From Planctomycetota bacterium (lineage in GTDB: Bacteria; Planctomycetota; Planctomycetia; Pirellulales; Thermoguttaceae), in assembly GCA_030612765.1 (NCBI GenBank), contig JAUWNG010000019.1, positions 1 to 38,164 of the forward strand: DNA of 38,164 nucleotides, written 5' to 3'. Under the pieces are notes generated by a model. The model worked only from the letters and a program-made list of their open reading frames with translations, was not told the origin of the DNA and ran no database searches. Both the position numbers and the translations under genes were made by a program. Below, piece by piece: positions 22,790 through 35,757 of this stretch. The stretch's first letter is position 1, and every line of letters starts with the position of its first letter.

Positions 22790-22933
<144 letters not shown>

Positions 22934-22943
<10 letters not shown>

Positions 22944-23230
22944 GGCGTTTTGCTGCGCGAGCGTCGCCGGGGAGGCGCCGCCGTACTCCAGTCCTTCGTC
23001 AGGGTCTCGAATACTTCCGGCGATTCGTATCGGATGACGTTCTTTCCCTCGGGCATCGGTCCGATCAAGCCGCGGAACACCGGCAGTCCCCGCAACCCCA
23101 GGTCCGTGCTGCAATCGTCCACGCCAACCTGACAATGCCGCTTTAGCAGCGCCTCGCTGTTGTCGTAGTCGCGGATGCGGATTTGCCCATCGGCCCCCCG
23201 AGTGACCACGCGATAGGTGTCTTTATCCAT
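22934..23230 (-). CDS. Unrecognised 98-aa protein
   Basis: ATG at 23230 is preceded by AAGGAA eight bases upstream, supporting a real gene. The protein begins MDKDTYRVVTRGADGQIRIR, contains two Cys (HCQVGVDDCSTDLGL), and ends in a basic Arg/Ser tail. It has no membrane segment. Its stop codon lies within the direct repeat that flanks the palindromic element (22924-22943), so its native C-terminus may have been altered. I do not recognise the family. Confidence 0.6.
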
Positions 23231-23613: not shown

Positions 23614-23696
23614 GGAGGGTATGCGAATTGGTTAGCAGCCTGACTCGAAATCAGGTGCGGCGTAAGCCGTTGAGGGTTCGAGTCCCTTGCCCTCCG
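23614..23696 (+). tRNA. tRNA-Ser (anticodon CGA)
   Basis: A class II tRNA: acceptor GGAGGGT pairs with GCCCTCC (one G-U), the anticodon stem CCTGA/TCAGG encloses CTCGAAA, a long variable arm GCGGCGTAAGCCGT follows, and the T loop TTCGAGT is present. Anticodon CGA reads UCG. The discriminator is G, and CCA is not encoded. Confidence 0.95.
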
Positions 23697-23720
23697 CTTC
23701 GTATTGTCTCGCACGTCTTC

Positions 23721-23852: not shown

Positions 23853-23952
23853 GTAACCGTTCACGGGCCAGCCGGGGACTGGTCAATTTTCCGGCGAAAA
23901 AACGCATTTTGCCGACGAACCGTTAGCCGAAAACATGGCCCCGTCCCCTTCC
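23853..23952. repeat. Dispersed ~100-bp repeat, copy 2
   Basis: GTAACCGTTCACGGGCCAGC ... GAAAACATGGCCCCGTCCCC, matching 13041-13140 over most of its length in the same orientation. It is the main content of the gap between tRNA-Ser and the sigma factor gene, which otherwise holds no gene. Confidence 0.82.
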
Positions 23953-24041
23953 CGCGACCCCTTGGCATTCACGAAACCAAGCACGCTTCAGTCGGATGCA
24001 CTCCCCCCTCTTGGATTTATCGGGGGGGGGGATGTACAGAA

Positions 24042-24627: not shown

Positions 24628-26346
24628 ATGTCCACCTCCACAAACTTTGATGTCGAATCGGGCGTGTTGGCCGTTCGCTATTTGGACGGATCGGCCTCCC
24701 CGGAGGAGGTCGAGCGTTTGGACGCGTTGTTGGTCGCCGATCCGGCCCGTCGCGAGTGGTTTGCCACCCTCTGTATCGTGGTCACTGGTTTGGGCGAAGT
24801 CACCGCCGCGCCGTCTCTGCCTCAGGGGGATGCCGAGTCGCTGGAAATACACGTCCCGCCGCCCATAAACAACCCGTCTCTCTTTGGCGACGCCTATCAC
24901 GGCACGATGGGATTTTTCTCCCAGGAAATACCCTTGGCTTGGTTGATTACCACGGTGATTATGGGCATGATGCTGCTGGGTGCTTGGGCCATAAAAGTCA
25001 CCCACCACCAACATATCGCCGAGGCGCCGTCGCAGTCGGCACCGTCGGAAGCCATGCAGGAGATGGTGTTTGTCCGCCGGATCACAGGCATGGTCGATGT
25101 GAAATGGTCCGACGATCCCCGCTATCTGCCCCCGCCGGACTTCGCCCACGTCCCCTTAGACCGTAAATACATCCTCTCTTCCGGGCTGTTGGAAATCACC
25201 TACGACTCCGGCGCGAAGGTCATCCTCGAAGGCCCCTGCACCTACGAGGTCGAATCCACCGCCGGCGGCTATCTCGCGCTGGGAAAACTCACTGCAAAAG
25301 TGGTCAGTGGTCAGTGGTCAGTGGCCAGTGCGAAACCGCAAGCGGCAAATCAGAAATCTCCTTCATCCTTCATCCTTCATCCTTCATCCCTCTTCTCCGT
25401 CCGCACTCCCACCGCCCTCATCACCGACCTGGGCACCGAATTCGCCGTGGAAGTAGATGGGCAAGATGCAGCGATGGTTTGTGTCTTTGAGGGTGCAGTC
25501 AGTGTCGTTGACCGCAACAGCCAAGGTCGCGAGCTTGTCCGTGCGGGGGAAGCAATCCAGATTGCCTCGGGCACGATACGGCGAGTCGACTCGGGTAAGG
25601 CGTCAAAACACTTCGTTCGCCGGATTCGTCCACGCACCGTGACGACGCTCTTGACCGACGACTTCACGATGCCGTTGCTGAACCAAAAGTGGAAATGGGA
25701 CAATCCCCACTATAAGAACAAGTACAGCCTGACCGAGCGCCCGGGCTGGCTGCGAATCTCGCTGGCCACCGGCAACGAGGACACTTGGGCAGGCCGCCGC
25801 GGCGACGGGCCGTTCCTACGCACCGAAACGTCGAACTATCCCGCTCCTGACTTTTCCGTGGAGACGCTGATCGACATAGGCACGGCAAACAGCGGGAACA
25901 TCCCCATCGGTCTCGTGACCGGCCTGATGCTGTACGACACGGACCACTATGTCCCCGACGACTCCACGAACACCTACTATCCGTTCGACTTTACCTACGG
26001 ATTCCACCAAAGTGGCAACAAGGATATGCGGATTGAAGTGCAGGCGTGCGGCGTCCATGAGCCACTGCTATCGACTAGTGTCGTCTTCGCCTCGGCCTAC
26101 CTGAAAATGGACCGCGACGCCGCCGACAAGACGTGGACCATGTACTACAAGCAGAACGCGGCGGACCCGTGGACCCGGTTGGGCGTCGTCGACGACAGTA
26201 GTCTGCCGGGCGGGTGTACGACCGAGATGGAATTGGGGCTGTTCGCCAAAACCTATCAACATCATAGTTCGGAAGCGAAAGTCGACTTCGACTACTACCA
26301 CGTAACGCCCAACAAGGAGGACGTGAGAAAAAGCAACGGTAAGTAA
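24628..26346 (+). CDS. FecR-like membrane sensor with concanavalin-like C-terminal domain
   Basis: A 572-aa protein from ATG 24628. The cytoplasmic N-terminus (about 1-100) includes LAVRYLDGSASPEEVERLDALL, a typical anti-sigma-like segment. One membrane helix lies at about 102-122. A FecR-type domain follows (about 150-310, IILEGPCTYEVES-like and VRTPTALITDLGTEFAVEV). The last 220 residues form a LamG/concanavalin-like beta sandwich, which often binds carbohydrate. Residues about 225-255 are encoded by a dispersed DNA repeat inserted in frame. Next to the ECF sigma gene, it probably transmits an outside carbohydrate or envelope signal to that sigma factor. Confidence 0.9.
   Translation: MSTSTNFDVESGVLAVRYLDGSASPEEVERLDALLVADPARREWFATLCIVVTGLGEVTAAPSLPQGDAESLEIHVPPPINNPSLFGDAYHGTMGFFSQEIPLAWLITTVIMGMMLLGAWAIKVTHHQHIAEAPSQSAPSEAMQEMVFVRRITGMVDVKWSDDPRYLPPPDFAHVPLDRKYILSSGLLEITYDSGAKVILEGPCTYEVESTAGGYLALGKLTAKVVSGQWSVASAKPQAANQKSPSSFILHPSSLFSVRTPTALITDLGTEFAVEVDGQDAAMVCVFEGAVSVVDRNSQGRELVRAGEAIQIASGTIRRVDSGKASKHFVRRIRPRTVTTLLTDDFTMPLLNQKWKWDNPHYKNKYSLTERPGWLRISLATGNEDTWAGRRGDGPFLRTETSNYPAPDFSVETLIDIGTANSGNIPIGLVTGLMLYDTDHYVPDDSTNTYYPFDFTYGFHQSGNKDMRIEVQACGVHEPLLSTSVVFASAYLKMDRDAADKTWTMYYKQNAADPWTRLGVVDDSSLPGGCTTEMELGLFAKTYQHHSSEAKVDFDYYHVTPNKEDVRKSNGK
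25300..25388. repeat. Composite heptamer repeat inside the FecR-like coding region
   Basis: GTGGTCA heptamers at 25300-25327 lead into GTGCGAAACCGCAAGCGG, then CTTCATC heptamers at 25361-25388. The core is shared with 14418-14437 and 21516-21538, which are non-coding. The reading frame stays open throughout. Confidence 0.95.
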
Positions 26347-26512
26347 AGATTTCGAGGCCGTGGTTCACGGCCCGCAATGCCAACGGCCGTTCCGCGTGGC
26401 GGGCGGCGGATTGTCAAACGGTAAACAGAGTGCGAGGTTTGTTCGGCCCGCGGGTGGTCCGCGGGCGAGATTTTCGTGTTTTTTGTGTTTTTTTCCTTGG
26501 GAGGAATTACTC

Positions 26513-27367
26513 ATGTCTCGTTTTCTGAAACAGTCTGTTCTTTTGACGGCAGTGGTTGGTCTACTGTTGGTTCTCACTCTAATGGCGACCGGGACGGCCC
26601 AGGCGACGCTCATTGCCTACGATGGGTTCTCGGGTTACACAGATGGAAATTTGAACGGCCAAGGCCAAGGCACGGGGTGGTATGACAATTGGGCCACGGG
26701 GGGTGCGGGGACTACCACCGTCACGTCGGCGGAAGGGCTTACCTACGATCCTTTGCTGACTCAGCAAGGCCTTGGCACAGCCACGGTTGGCGGCAGCAGC
26801 GAGGCCAATGCCATTCGCTTTACCAACACGTCCATGTCCAGTGGAACGGTGTACTTCAGCCAACTTGTCCAGCTTAGGGAACTCCCCGCCGGCGGCGGTC
26901 CCATCATGGTGCAATTGGTCGGGCAGGCCGGGAGCGACCGGGGGATAGCGCTTCATGTCGGCTGGGTTACGACTCCTCCCAATCTTATATGGAGGGTGAA
27001 TGTGAATGACGGTAGCGGTAGTACTGCTGCTAGCACCGGTATAACTTCAACGCTGGACACGACGTTCCTGGTAGGGAGGATCGACTTCGATGCCGACGGC
27101 GGCAATGACAAAGTTAGTTTCTACGTCAACCCCGACTTGGACGTCGAACCGGCCACCGCCGATGCCGTCGTAACTAATCGCAACATTGGGGCGATGAACG
27201 GGTATCGCATTTGCGTCACCCAGGCTAATCATTCGATGAAGGTCGATGAAATCCGCATCGGCACGACGTGGGCCGATGTCACTCCCATTCCCGAGCCGGG
27301 CACGCTGGCCCTGTTGGCCACCGGGCTGATCGGTTTGCTGTGCTACGCCTGGAGGAAGCGGAAGTAA
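26513..27367 (+). CDS. PEP-CTERM exported protein, LamG-like
   Basis: A 284-aa protein. ATG 26513 follows GGGAGGA by seven bases. A signal peptide (about 1-31, ending TAQA) precedes a beta-rich domain starting LIAYDGFSGYTDGNLNGQG. The C-terminus is a PEP-CTERM sorting signal: PEPGT, a hydrophobic helix, then CYAWRKRK. Such tails are cut by exosortase and mark surface or exopolysaccharide-linked proteins. The last 19 residues are identical to those of the next gene. No exosortase gene is in this window. Confidence 0.9.
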   Translation: MSRFLKQSVLLTAVVGLLLVLTLMATGTAQATLIAYDGFSGYTDGNLNGQGQGTGWYDNWATGGAGTTTVTSAEGLTYDPLLTQQGLGTATVGGSSEANAIRFTNTSMSSGTVYFSQLVQLRELPAGGGPIMVQLVGQAGSDRGIALHVGWVTTPPNLIWRVNVNDGSGSTAASTGITSTLDTTFLVGRIDFDADGGNDKVSFYVNPDLDVEPATADAVVTNRNIGAMNGYRICVTQANHSMKVDEIRIGTTWADVTPIPEPGTLALLATGLIGLLCYAWRKRK

Positions 27368-27372
27368 GTGTA

Positions 27373-27425
27373 ATCCGCACACTCCGTGTGCGGAACCGTT
27401 TGGGTGGCAGTTCAACTGCCACCCA
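27373..27425. repeat. Two hairpins after the PEP-CTERM gene
   Basis: TCCGCACACTCCGTGTGCGGA (27373-27393) is a perfect stem with a three-base loop. TGGGTGGCAGTTCAACTGCCACCCA (27401-27425) belongs to the GGTGGCAGTT family (18311, 30163, 30341). Either could end transcription, though no T run follows. Confidence 0.85.
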
Positions 27426-31053: not shown

Positions 31054-32190
31054 ATGTACTATTTTACGTCACAAACCCGCACGCTACAAGTCGCCCGCAA
31101 CGACCGCTCCCGCCGGCAAAAAGCCGCCCTCCCGGACTGCGATCCGGGGGCGTTTCTCTCCCCTCTCCCCTCTCCCCTCTCCCCTCGCGCGTTTACGCTC
31201 GTGGAACTTTTGGTGGTGATCACGATTATTGGGATTTTGATCGCGTTGCTGCTGCCGGCGGTGCAGGCGGCCCGCGAGGCGGCCAGAAGACTGCAATGCT
31301 GCAACAACCTCAAGCAACTCGCCCTCGGCTGCCTGCAACACGAGGAGACGCATCAGTTCTTTCCCTCGGGTGGTTGGGGATACGGTTGGGCAGGCCACCC
31401 CGATCGCGGCGCCGGCCCTAGGCAGCCCGGCGGTTGGGGATACCATGTCTTGCCTTATATCGAGCAAACCGCGTTGCACCAGCTTGGCGCCGGACTAACG
31501 GGCGCGGCGTACGGGACCGCCAACCTGCAACGGATCGCCACCCCGCTTGCCGTCTTCCACTGCCCGAGCCGTCGCCGGCCGCTCGTTTACCCGGCGTTAT
31601 CCATCTTTCCGGGCGTCGTGGGACAGCGCATGGTCTCCGGGCCCATGACCCAAGCCGCCCGGAACGATTACGCCATCAACGGCGGCGACCTATGGAACGA
31701 CTACGACATCGGCCCCATGACCCTCGAGGAAGGCGACACGACCTATACTTGGCCGGCCGTCCAGATATTAAATAGTTGGGGGGGCACGACCGGCATAAGT
31801 TACGAGCGGAGCAAAGTGATCATGGCCGATATCAAGGACGGCACCAGCAACACCTACCTGGTGGGCGAAAAGTACCTCGATCCCGACAACTACGCGACGG
31901 GCGGCGACTACGGCGACAACGAGAGCATCTATAGCGGCGATTCCCGAGACATCGTCCGCTGGACGGCTTTGAACTCCAACCCGCAGTCGGCGGCGGAGTA
32001 CCTTCCGCCATTCCAGGACATCCCCGGGATGAACCTGCAGTGGTTGTTCGGCAGCGCCCACTCCATCGGCTTCCACATGGCCATGTGCGACGGCTCGGTG
32101 CAGTTCATCAACTACACGATCGAACCCGAAGTCCACCGCTGCCTGGGCAACCGCCAGGACGGCAAGACGATCGACGGCAAGAAGTTCTAG
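31054..32190 (+). CDS. DUF1559 pseudopilin-like protein
   Basis: A 378-aa protein. The prepilin signal FTLVELLVVITIIGILIALLLP begins at residue 47 (cleavage before Phe47, Glu51 as the +5 residue), followed by AVQAAREAARRLQC and NNLKQLAL, the DUF1559 hallmark. The C-terminus has MCDGSVQFINYTI. These are numerous in planctomycetes and probably exported through type II/IV pilin-like machinery. The leader before the cleavage site (46 residues) is longer than the usual few residues and includes LSPLPSPLSP from a CTCTCCC heptamer array. The -1 residue is Ala rather than Gly. The start is uncertain; ATG 31054 is the nearest. Confidence 0.88.
   Translation: MYYFTSQTRTLQVARNDRSRRQKAALPDCDPGAFLSPLPSPLSPRAFTLVELLVVITIIGILIALLLPAVQAAREAARRLQCCNNLKQLALGCLQHEETHQFFPSGGWGYGWAGHPDRGAGPRQPGGWGYHVLPYIEQTALHQLGAGLTGAAYGTANLQRIATPLAVFHCPSRRRPLVYPALSIFPGVVGQRMVSGPMTQAARNDYAINGGDLWNDYDIGPMTLEEGDTTYTWPAVQILNSWGGTTGISYERSKVIMADIKDGTSNTYLVGEKYLDPDNYATGGDYGDNESIYSGDSRDIVRWTALNSNPQSAAEYLPPFQDIPGMNLQWLFGSAHSIGFHMAMCDGSVQFINYTIEPEVHRCLGNRQDGKTIDGKKF
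31156..31183. repeat. CTCTCCC heptamer array inside the DUF1559 gene
   Basis: Four exact CTCTCCC units immediately before the prepilin cleavage region. They supply part of the unusually long leader peptide. Confidence 0.9.
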
Positions 32191-33643: not shown

Positions 33644-34612
33644 ATGTCCAACCGTCGAAATTTCATCAAAGAGTTCGCCGCCGCGGCGTCTGCCGTGGCG
33701 ATAACGACCACGGGAGCGGCTGTTGCCGAGGAGCCGACAAGAGAGGCCGCCCGCCGGACCTGCGGCAACCAGCGGCGATGGCGAACGGCCTTCGGGCTAA
33801 ACGGTTTTGCATCCTCCGAAAGCACGTTCAAGAAAACGTTTCCCATCTGGGAGGTTTTGGAGTTTGCCCAGCGCGAAGGTTTCGAGGGTATCGAAATAGT
33901 GCCCAACTGGCCCCAGAAGGAAATGTACGTGAATCTGGCCGACGAGGCCCGAATCGCCAGCCTGCGGGGGCTCTTCGCGCGGTACAATCTGAAAATCTTT
34001 TCCATCCAGACGTCCGGACAGGAGGCTTTTCAGAAGGATCGGAGCGTGCGCGAGGGCTGGGTGAAGCGGTTTGCCGACTTGGCCCGCTTTGCCCACAAGG
34101 CCGGCTGCGAGTGCATCGGCTACTGGCCGGCGGGAGACGTGGCCGGACAGACCGTGAACCAGGCCATCGATTCGCTGGTCTGGTCGCTGCGGGAAGTAGG
34201 CAAGATCGTCAACGATGAGGAGCTAATGTTCGGAATCGAGATCGAGCCGCCCTTCGCCTTCAACAAGATCGAGCACATGATTAAGATTCTCGACGGCGTC
34301 GATCATCCCCAGGTAAAGGCGATTTACGACCCGAGCCATTGCGACTTGATGAACGGCAGCCGAGGAAAGCCGCACGAACTGTTGGAACGAATCGGCGTAC
34401 ACCGTATCGGGTATACCCATTTCACCGACAGCGACGGTACGCTTTTCCGCGGCACCTCGAAGCACCTGCCTTGTGGCGACGGGCACATCGACATCCGCAA
34501 ATCGCTTGAGACCCTTTGGGAGGGCGGCTTCGAGGGCTGGTTCATGATCGACGCCTGGAACACCCAAAACCCCTACGACGCCTGCCGCAAAGGCCGCCTG
34601 GCAGCCTGTTGA
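33644..34612 (+). CDS. Tat-exported sugar phosphate isomerase/epimerase-like TIM barrel (3' end altered)
   Basis: A 322-aa protein. The Tat signal NRRNFIKEFAAAASAVAI leads into an AP-endonuclease-2/xylose-isomerase-like TIM barrel: FEGIEIVPNWP, GCECIGYWPAGD, EIEPPFAFN and IYDPSHCDLMN with metal-binding type Glu/His/Asp residues, and WFMIDAWN near the end. It probably isomerises or epimerises a sugar together with the preceding oxidoreductase. The stop codon TGA lies inside the left end of a palindromic repeat (34602-34731). The protein ends abruptly after RKGRLAAC, so the native C-terminus has probably been lost. Confidence 0.88.
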   Translation: MSNRRNFIKEFAAAASAVAITTTGAAVAEEPTREAARRTCGNQRRWRTAFGLNGFASSESTFKKTFPIWEVLEFAQREGFEGIEIVPNWPQKEMYVNLADEARIASLRGLFARYNLKIFSIQTSGQEAFQKDRSVREGWVKRFADLARFAHKAGCECIGYWPAGDVAGQTVNQAIDSLVWSLREVGKIVNDEELMFGIEIEPPFAFNKIEHMIKILDGVDHPQVKAIYDPSHCDLMNGSRGKPHELLERIGVHRIGYTHFTDSDGTLFRGTSKHLPCGDGHIDIRKSLETLWEGGFEGWFMIDAWNTQNPYDACRKGRLAAC

Positions 34613-34731
34613 AAAAGTCGGTTTTCGAGAAATCGGGTGCCACTGCTGGCTTGTCCAGCAGTGTTTTTCCGGGTGTTTCTCCCCACACTGCTGGGCAAGC
34701 CAGCAGTGGCACCCTTTTTCAACGGACTGCT
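34602..34731. repeat. ~130-bp palindromic element (copy 2)
   Basis: CAGCCTGTTGAAAAAG at 34602-34617 and CTTTTTCAACGGACTGCT at 34714-34731 are terminal inverted repeats. Inside is the same GTGCCACTGCTGGCTTG palindrome as at 22811-22927. It sits exactly at the junction of two convergent genes. Confidence 0.92.
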
Positions 34732-35757
34732 AAGCGCTCCGCCACCGGCGGCGCGGGCCAGCACGAGCGCTTCCTCCGCGCCGAACCAGTCGCACTCGGC
34801 GGTGCGTACCGTACCCGGAGCGGCCCCCTCGCGCCGAAGCCGCTCCAGGCGTTCGCGGACCTGCCGCAAACGGCGGGTGGCCTCTTCCTCCGTCGGAAAC
34901 TCCCGCAACGGCAAATCGACCATCGCACGCCGACACGAAATCGATATCTCGCTTCGATAATGAACCTCCGCCAGCGCCGCCGCCACCGAACTGCCGAGGG
35001 CCTCGCCCAGCCGTTGGGCTTCGGCATAAGTGTTGCCGTGGACCACGTGCCGAGGGCTTTGATTGCCGCACGGTCCCGTATGATACACCACCGGACATCC
35101 GCCGAGGACCGTCCGTTACAGGTACTGCCGGGCCAGCGCTGGAAAATCGCCGCTAAGCAAGGTCGAATCCTCGTGGAGCACCGTCGGGTGCATGGAGCAA
35201 ACGAGCATCGCGGCGATCGGCGCATGGTCGTCGGCCGTTCGGACCGAAAGCACCGGCACGCGCGGGTTCGACGGTCCGGCCGGATCGCGGCGGTTGCCGC
35301 CGACGACCGATCCGTCGGCCACGGCCAATCCGATCTCGGCCGGCCGAGCAGCCTCGTGTGCGGCAATGGCCGCCGCCACGATCCCGTCCTCCATCTGTTG
35401 AAGAAATCGCGGATCGGGATCGGGAACCACCGGGTCGGCCTCGTTGCTCAGATATTTTACCGTTACCGGACCGGAATGAGTGTGGGTGGCGGTCGTCATG
35501 ACGTTCGCCGTCGGAACGCCGATTGAATCGCCGATCCGCCGCCGTGCCCGAGCGGCCAAGTCATTTGGGACGAAGATCGCATCGACGGCCACGAACAGGG
35601 CGGCGGTTTCGCCGTCGCTTAAGAACAGGGCCGACGCCAGCAGGGGATCGTGGACGCCGGTGCTGCGCCGGGCGACGTGTGGATAGCCGAAAAGGAAATG
35701 CGGTTCGTCGGGTGTAACGTCGACCGCCGCGGCGCCGGCCATCAATTGTGTGTGCAT
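34732..35757 (-). pseudogene. Broken neutral/alkaline ceramidase-like gene
   Basis: Translation from ATG 35757 gives a ceramidase-like N-terminus (AAAVDVTPDEPHFLFGYPH), the zinc-type motif TATHTHSGPV and NPRVPVLSVRTAD, then SMHPTVLHEDSTLLSGDFP. A TAA at 35116-35118 interrupts the frame after ARQYL. Homology-like sequence resumes in the very same frame (RTVLGGCPVVYHTGPCGNQS), so it is a nonsense change, perhaps CAA to TAA, not a frameshift. The gene then runs into the palindromic element, where the coding pattern ends. The normal C-terminal part of the family is missing. Neutral ceramidases hydrolyse N-acyl sphingosines; here function is probably lost. Confidence 0.8.

Follow-up and report, generated by a model that had tools for sequence, protein, structure and literature searches.

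The FecR-like gene on a 38,164-nt contig of a Planctomycetota bacterium (JAUWNG010000019.1; "the window" is this whole stretch) carries an in-frame insert built of short tandem repeats inside its sensor domain, and so does every paralogue that we could read in three species of the genus. The inserts occupy one place, hold their frame, avoid stop codons, and vary widely in sequence. Around them, the genes lose their locus identity between species, and downstream segments are replaced. We consider it probable that the insert is a translated hinge, made of repeats, and that it marks the center of a zone in which sensor halves and cargo are recombined between sigma/anti-sigma loci. Homologous recombination would be the agent of this exchange, and the cytoplasmic head of the protein presumably binds the sigma factor. 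It is possible that the repeats promote the exchange, beyond merely tolerating it.

The FecR-like gene adjoins the gene of an ECF sigma factor and is its predicted anti-sigma partner (Table 1). The sigma gene scores above the cut-off of NCBIfam TIGR02937 and below that of TIGR02989. The FecR-like protein is ordered as a cytoplasmic head, a membrane helix, the insert-bearing FecR domain, and a C-terminal concanavalin-like domain. Its match to the FecR domain (PF04773) covers residues 252–291 with 24.0 bits, at the Pfam cut-off. A comparison with solved structures gave no credible match for the window protein. The insert consists of two arrays of 7-nt units around a middle piece, with the residues ...GYLALGKLTA on its left and FSVRTPTALITDLGTEF on its right. 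The initial annotation had described an in-frame repeat of about 30 residues within the FecR domain, and its position and reading frame were right. The insert has 32 codons and exceeds the loop of most relatives by ~24 residues.

Table 1. Features of the FecR-like locus and related elements in the window
Feature	Start	End	Strand	Basis
AGTGG array + CCGCAAGCGG module, copy outside the FecR gene, 88%	14398	14437	+	
Part of a reverse-oriented copy of the AGTGG/CCGCAAGCGG module	21535	21552	-	
ECF sigma factor gene, 174 aa	24096	24620	+	Pfam Sigma70_r2 and r4_2
FecR-like gene, 572 aa from ATG	24628	26346	+	Pfam FecR + GH43_C2
Head, ~residues 1–60, staying with its sigma gene between species	24628	24807 (approximate)	+	Ortholog rank, 100-nt segments
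Membrane helix	~24928	~24993	+	By-eye reading
Repeat-built insert, 32 codons, 96 nt (KVVSGQWSVASAKPQAANQKSPSSFILHPSSL)	25297	25392	+	
Heptamer array AGTGGTC, 4.6 units	25299	25330	+	TRF
Middle piece: CCGCAAGCGG + one AATCAGA-type unit	25331	25358	+	
Heptamer array TCCTTCA, 4.4 units	25359	25389	+	TRF
Conserved block FSVRTPTALITDLGTEFAVEV adjoining the insert 3′ end	25393	25455	+	
C-terminal concanavalin-like domain	25654	26304	+	Pfam GH43_C2, residues 343–559
PEP-CTERM protein, locus cargo	26513	27367	+	NCBIfam TIGR02595; start codon by eye
DUF5703/GH95-like PEP-CTERM protein, cargo	27468	30125	+	

The FecR region has 41 matches in the window's own genome (G000), some of them split, and 50 and 38 in two other genomes from this genus. 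The assemblies of all three are fragmented drafts, and G021 is a metagenome-assembled genome (MAG). Each of the 87 paralogues that show both flanks (27 in G000, 28 in G021, and 32 in G020) has a repeat-built insert of 57–134 nt, and none has a short loop. Twelve loci with a missing flank were not counted (L065, L067, L091, L107, L110, L113, L115, L117, L118, L136, L137, and L138). L065 stops short of the site, L138 has no readable site, and L067 shows the stretch following GKLTA, broken off by the contig end. Arrays are also present in nine further truncated or diverged loci. The initial annotation had read the insertion as an event in one gene and possibly a scar there. The insert is real but not peculiar to that gene; instead, every paralogue seen in the three species has one, with differing repeat sequences.

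Most of the 87 inserts are arrays of 7-nt units. Two inserts of G021 are 8-nt arrays, and three inserts of G020, each 57 nt long, are paired palindromes. The left array types include AGTGGTC, GGGGAGA, GGGGCGA, GGTCAGA, GGTTCAA, CTCAAAG, and GGTTCAG, and the right array types include TCCTTCA, CTCTCCC, CACTATC, and CTAATCC. At least eight left and at least four right module types are combined in many ways in G000 and G021. The number of units also varies among paralogues, as it does between the window locus and its G021 sister (a comparison of species, not of strains of one). A second FecR-domain loop, after the DLGTEF block, varies in length in L166, L171, and L173 and carries further peptides of repeat-like character, such as LPSPSGRGAGGEG and GTGLASGTP.

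The insert is far beyond chance, since the 111-nt stretch that contains it has 54 matches in its own genome and period 7 accounts for 72 of 171 tandem arrays (16.7 per 100 kb, in 28 unit classes). This array survey used a 432-kb sample, made up of the window and 20 stretches of the same genome (L139–L158). Like known heptanucleotide tandem repeats, these are tandem 7-nt units dispersed over many loci. Several arrays form inverted pairs, G-rich against C-rich with a loop between, and one intergenic pair of this kind folds at z -6.2. The window also has two copies (22807–22962 and 34604–34758) of a stretch with the inverted words CACTGCTGG and CCAGCAGTG. A hairpin role was rejected for the coding insert, as the window insert shows nothing unusual in RNA folding (z -0.19). 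Among the seven inserts chosen from the 87 for folding, three other heptamer inserts gave z -1.1 to +0.8, one gave -3.1, a 57-nt insert gave -2.0, and strong folding was seen only in an 8-nt-unit insert (-5.9). A G-quadruplex as the common cause was likewise set aside, as G-runs are missing from the AATCAGA and CTCAAAG modules and from the 57-nt inserts.

We also looked at this site outside the genus. Forty-nine loci were fetched from other genera and families, and the loop was readable in 32. Measured from GxLxA to TPxA, it has 12–13 residues in 23 of the 32 (two of these 23 are repeat fetches of the same gene) vs 36 in the window. L019 was misparsed by the loop script and has ~13 residues on reading. 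Heptamer arrays occupy the site in two of the outside loci. One is in G012 (L014, the same gene as L189, from a Rhodopirellula sp. MAG); in L189 (43–789), the insert at the same FecR site is even longer and has several heptamer arrays. The other is in G040 (L197, the same as L191, CSMAG_2310), where contamination of the bin is possible because CSMAG_2310 is so like the genus. Repeat filling thus took place at least in this genus and in G012. Loops of similar length that lack the DNA repeat, which the initial annotation had weighed against its own reading, do exist in part: L198, L201, L202, L203, and L219, of another family, have 23–30 residues and, by eye, no heptamer arrays. Therefore, the site is indel-tolerant in general.

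This tolerance of length bears on the alternative that survives best, a scar without a role, to which we give a little less than an even chance. An early heptamer element would have entered the ancestral FecR loop, been copied with the gene, and drifted by slippage and conversion. The frame alone would be policed, and the halves would be exchanged merely through the similarity of the paralogues, so that this account overlaps with the hinge explanation except for any role of the repeats. The abundance of heptamer arrays everywhere in the genome speaks for it, as does the presence of the same modules outside FecR genes. None of the 87 loci has gone back to the short loop, and the kind of array differs between loci with alike upstream neighbors, both of which a passive scar accommodates less easily. 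These two points weigh little, however, because conversion could keep any state.

The insert length is a multiple of three in 83 of 87 paralogues (P = 1e-34 vs an expectation of 1/3, for loci that are not independent), and the common lengths step by 21 nt, or three units. Only 1 of these 83 inserts has an in-frame stop in the used frame, while the other two sense frames have stops in 26 and 17 and the antisense frames in 78, 77, and 73. In the CTAATCC arrays of G020, the unit in which TAA is due in frame reads CAA in all five inserts listed. The insert is translated, and its frame and stop-freedom are policed; the initial claim that a repeat here makes protein sequence was confirmed.

Two other explanations turn on the reading frame, and we consider both unlikely, to a similar degree. 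The first is that these are phase-variable contingency loci, where one 7-nt unit more or fewer would shift the frame and turn the sensor half off or on. Three of the 27 G000 loci indeed lose the frame at the insert, and their downstream frame is open; the out-of-frame L063 has six TCCTTCA units vs four in its in-frame sisters. However, with 83 of 87 inserts in frame and lengths that step by 21 nt, most loci must be held ON. Furthermore, arrays of about four units are short for fast switching, the shift in L116, the fourth out-of-frame locus, precedes the insert, and indel errors are possible in draft assemblies. As in simple-sequence contingency loci, the number of units in a coding array would set the frame; unlike in those loci, nearly all copies are in frame, and the kind of unit differs, not its number alone. 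The second explanation is a selected protein loop, in which the low-complexity peptide itself acts, for example as a linker sensitive to protease during signal release, with the exact sequence of little importance. The upkeep of the frame and the avoidance of stops would suit such a loop, but the insert peptides are wholly different among paralogues. In the AlphaFold model of the window protein, the insert is the least confident stretch of the core and is flanked by two predicted strands, a point in favor of this reading, although the model is of poor quality (mean pLDDT 46).

Next, we consider how the paralogues correspond between species. For G000 and G021, we used 12 of 15 upstream reciprocal-best pairs; L041/L081, L064/L095, and L066/L093 were left out for short alignments (132–307 nt). 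The pairs were chosen by upstream similarity, which biases the comparison toward finding downstream loss. The two genomes are close: in the matched pairs, the upstream regions are mostly 91–98% identical. In 100-nt segments numbered from the insert, each ortholog was ranked among 22–28 G021 loci. It comes first in 7–11 of the 12 pairs between -1100 and -500, in 2 at -500 to -400, and in 0–2 from -400 through +300; over +0 to +800, it is nearest in 1–3 of 10–12 pairs. Over longer pieces, the share of paralogues lying nearer than the ortholog is 0.00 on the sigma side, 0.44 before the insert, 0.52 in it, and 0.47 after it, and the last three values match those of random partners. Four-fold sites differ at 45 of 595 positions in the sigma ORF (0.076) and 90 of 1269 in the distal head (0.071), and at 147 of 586 in the last 100 codons before the insert (0.251) and 92 of 261 in the 50 codons after it (0.352). 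Four of the twelve sigma values (L047, L055, L062, and L053) are based on very few codons or none, as the ORF finder did not pick up the sigma gene there; the distal-head value is independent of sigma ORF detection. The boundary between the stable and scrambled parts lies near -500, at about residue 60, which is the end of the cytoplasmic head. Judged from these alignments, each locus keeps its sigma gene and its head, and the FecR domain is scrambled among loci. Segmental exchange among paralogues is thus seen in comparisons between species only.

The window locus follows the same pattern. Its G021 sister (contig C140) ranks first at -700 to -300, tied with a duplicate record, and past -300 it ranks 9, 9, and 5 of 31–33. 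The sister keeps the AGTGG module and has at least three AATCAGA units vs one in the window; its contig ends there. Across the 12 pairs, the insert type is common to both members in only 2 and differs in 10. Right modules track the right flank (34 of 55 vs a mean of 22.8 after shuffling, P = 0.004). The left 100 nt is tracked weakly by left modules (18 of 54 vs a mean of 9.6, P = 0.010). Neither left nor right modules show an association with the sigma side.

Beyond the insert, 2 of 10 region pairs are colinear throughout, 6 are without long homology 3′ of the insert, and 2 have too little sequence. The colinear pairs (L220/L221 and L222/L223) match on both sides despite a differing insert and FecR core, and conversion of the FecR domain would there have run over tracts of a few hundred bp. 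In L238/L239, synteny resumes ~6 kb on; each replaced segment has a FecR 3′ half, a PEP-CTERM gene, and a DUF1559 gene, with different content. Positions 25420–27420 of the window have no DNA counterpart in G021 or G020 save two short pieces. One is a motif of 35–40 nt that follows the insert, and the other is the final ~130 nt of the PEP-CTERM gene, a piece that recurs in tens of places. For the glycosidase-like cargo gene, the closest G021 match (86%) sits on a contig in which no FecR gene was detected. It is very unlikely that near-identical paralogues were misjoined at the repeat and that the exchanged halves are assembly artefacts: several FecR contigs do end in or at the insert and the paralogues are ~85–94% alike there, but within 700 nt of the insert no exact 141-nt stretch is common to any two of the 28 complete G021 loci, whose contig names carry k141 (with the same result for G000 and G020), L238/L239 regain synteny beyond the replaced part, L220/L221 and L222/L223 are colinear around differing cores, and at the DNA level G021 lacks the window's 3′ half.

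In the hinge explanation, the heptamer pool of the genome would supply the repeat modules that fill one FecR hinge loop. The insert would stay in frame and stop-free, with its sequence and unit number otherwise free. Non-allelic exchange among ~30–40 dispersed paralogues would then convert the FecR domain or, more often, replace the entire 3′ half of the gene together with the downstream PEP-CTERM cargo, and the sigma gene and cytoplasmic head would remain in place. A fixed sigma/anti-sigma pair would in this way gain new extracytoplasmic sensor halves and cargo. Selection for paired sigma and anti-sigma factors, with free exchange of the extracellular part, would fit the boundary near residue 60. 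The homology of the FecR genes alone could be sufficient for exchange; the central place of the arrays in the zone and the travel of right modules with right flanks make a driving role for the repeats possible. Against the hinge explanation stand the draft state of the genomes, with contigs that end in or at the insert, the choice of pairs by upstream similarity, the five related long loops without arrays, the ordinary RNA folding of the window insert, the two pairs with the same insert type, and the first module kept by the window's sister. A bolder version is possible but doubtful, in which dozens of sigma/anti-sigma loci swap extracytoplasmic sensor halves and cargo operons through a recombination joint in the FecR gene and the heptamer hinge promotes the exchange and makes many junctions readable, because stop-free unit arrays keep an open frame.

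The arrangement resembles FecI/FecR of E. coli, where a sigma gene is followed by that of a FecR-domain membrane protein. PMC7406223 gives the 59 N-terminal residues of E. coli FecR as essential for sigma activity, about the size of the locus-bound head described here (~60). Unlike FecI/FecR, the present family has 30–40 paralogues, C-terminal concanavalin-like domains, PEP-CTERM cargo, a repeat-built insert, and reshuffled 3′ halves. Cyanobacterial STRR are also heptanucleotide tandem repeats. In PMC4679880, heptanucleotides are described as the most abundant class of long simple sequence repeats (LSSR) in most genomes. Our arrays share with STRR and LSSR the dominance of period 7, the many unit sequences, and the dispersed loci; unlike them, they fill one coding site in frame across a whole paralogue family. 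Gene-conversion antigenic variation at pilE/pilS and vlsE pairs a silent store with one expression site. These systems have in common with ours dispersed homologous copies, segmental exchange, and a variable middle between conserved blocks. Here, however, the product is a sensor/regulator, and the divergence is between species, not within a culture. No set of silent donors with one expression site was seen among the 87 copies: 83 are in frame through the site, and the copies compared adjoin an upstream region with 94–99% identity between species.

A search of an open library, judged by title and abstract, turned up no case in which heptamer repeats, FecR regulators, and gene conversion, each already known, come together at one coding site in a whole family of paralogues. 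The combination links two open questions, namely the role of the abundant heptamer repeats of bacteria and the wiring of sigma/anti-sigma pairs to signals in Planctomycetota. Should the exchange prove real, bacteria are able to direct an unchanged transcription switch to other signals by replacing just the outer sensor half, with a simple coding repeat at the seam. Annotation and phylogeny based on whole FecR genes will mislead in such genomes.

Additionally, several stretches around the locus recur elsewhere. Blocks at 27287–27420 (the tail of the PEP-CTERM gene) and 31190–31480 (the start of a DUF1559 pilin-like gene) are found at tens of places and might provide the distal joint when cargo is exchanged. 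The stretch at 23643–23698 borders both ends of a ~9.2-kb segment in G021 that is absent from the window (L257, with borders at ~2606–2661 and from 11856), a layout that would fit the gain or loss of an element between direct repeats. Finally, a ~104-nt stretch at 23854–23957 is present in ~30 or more places in G021.
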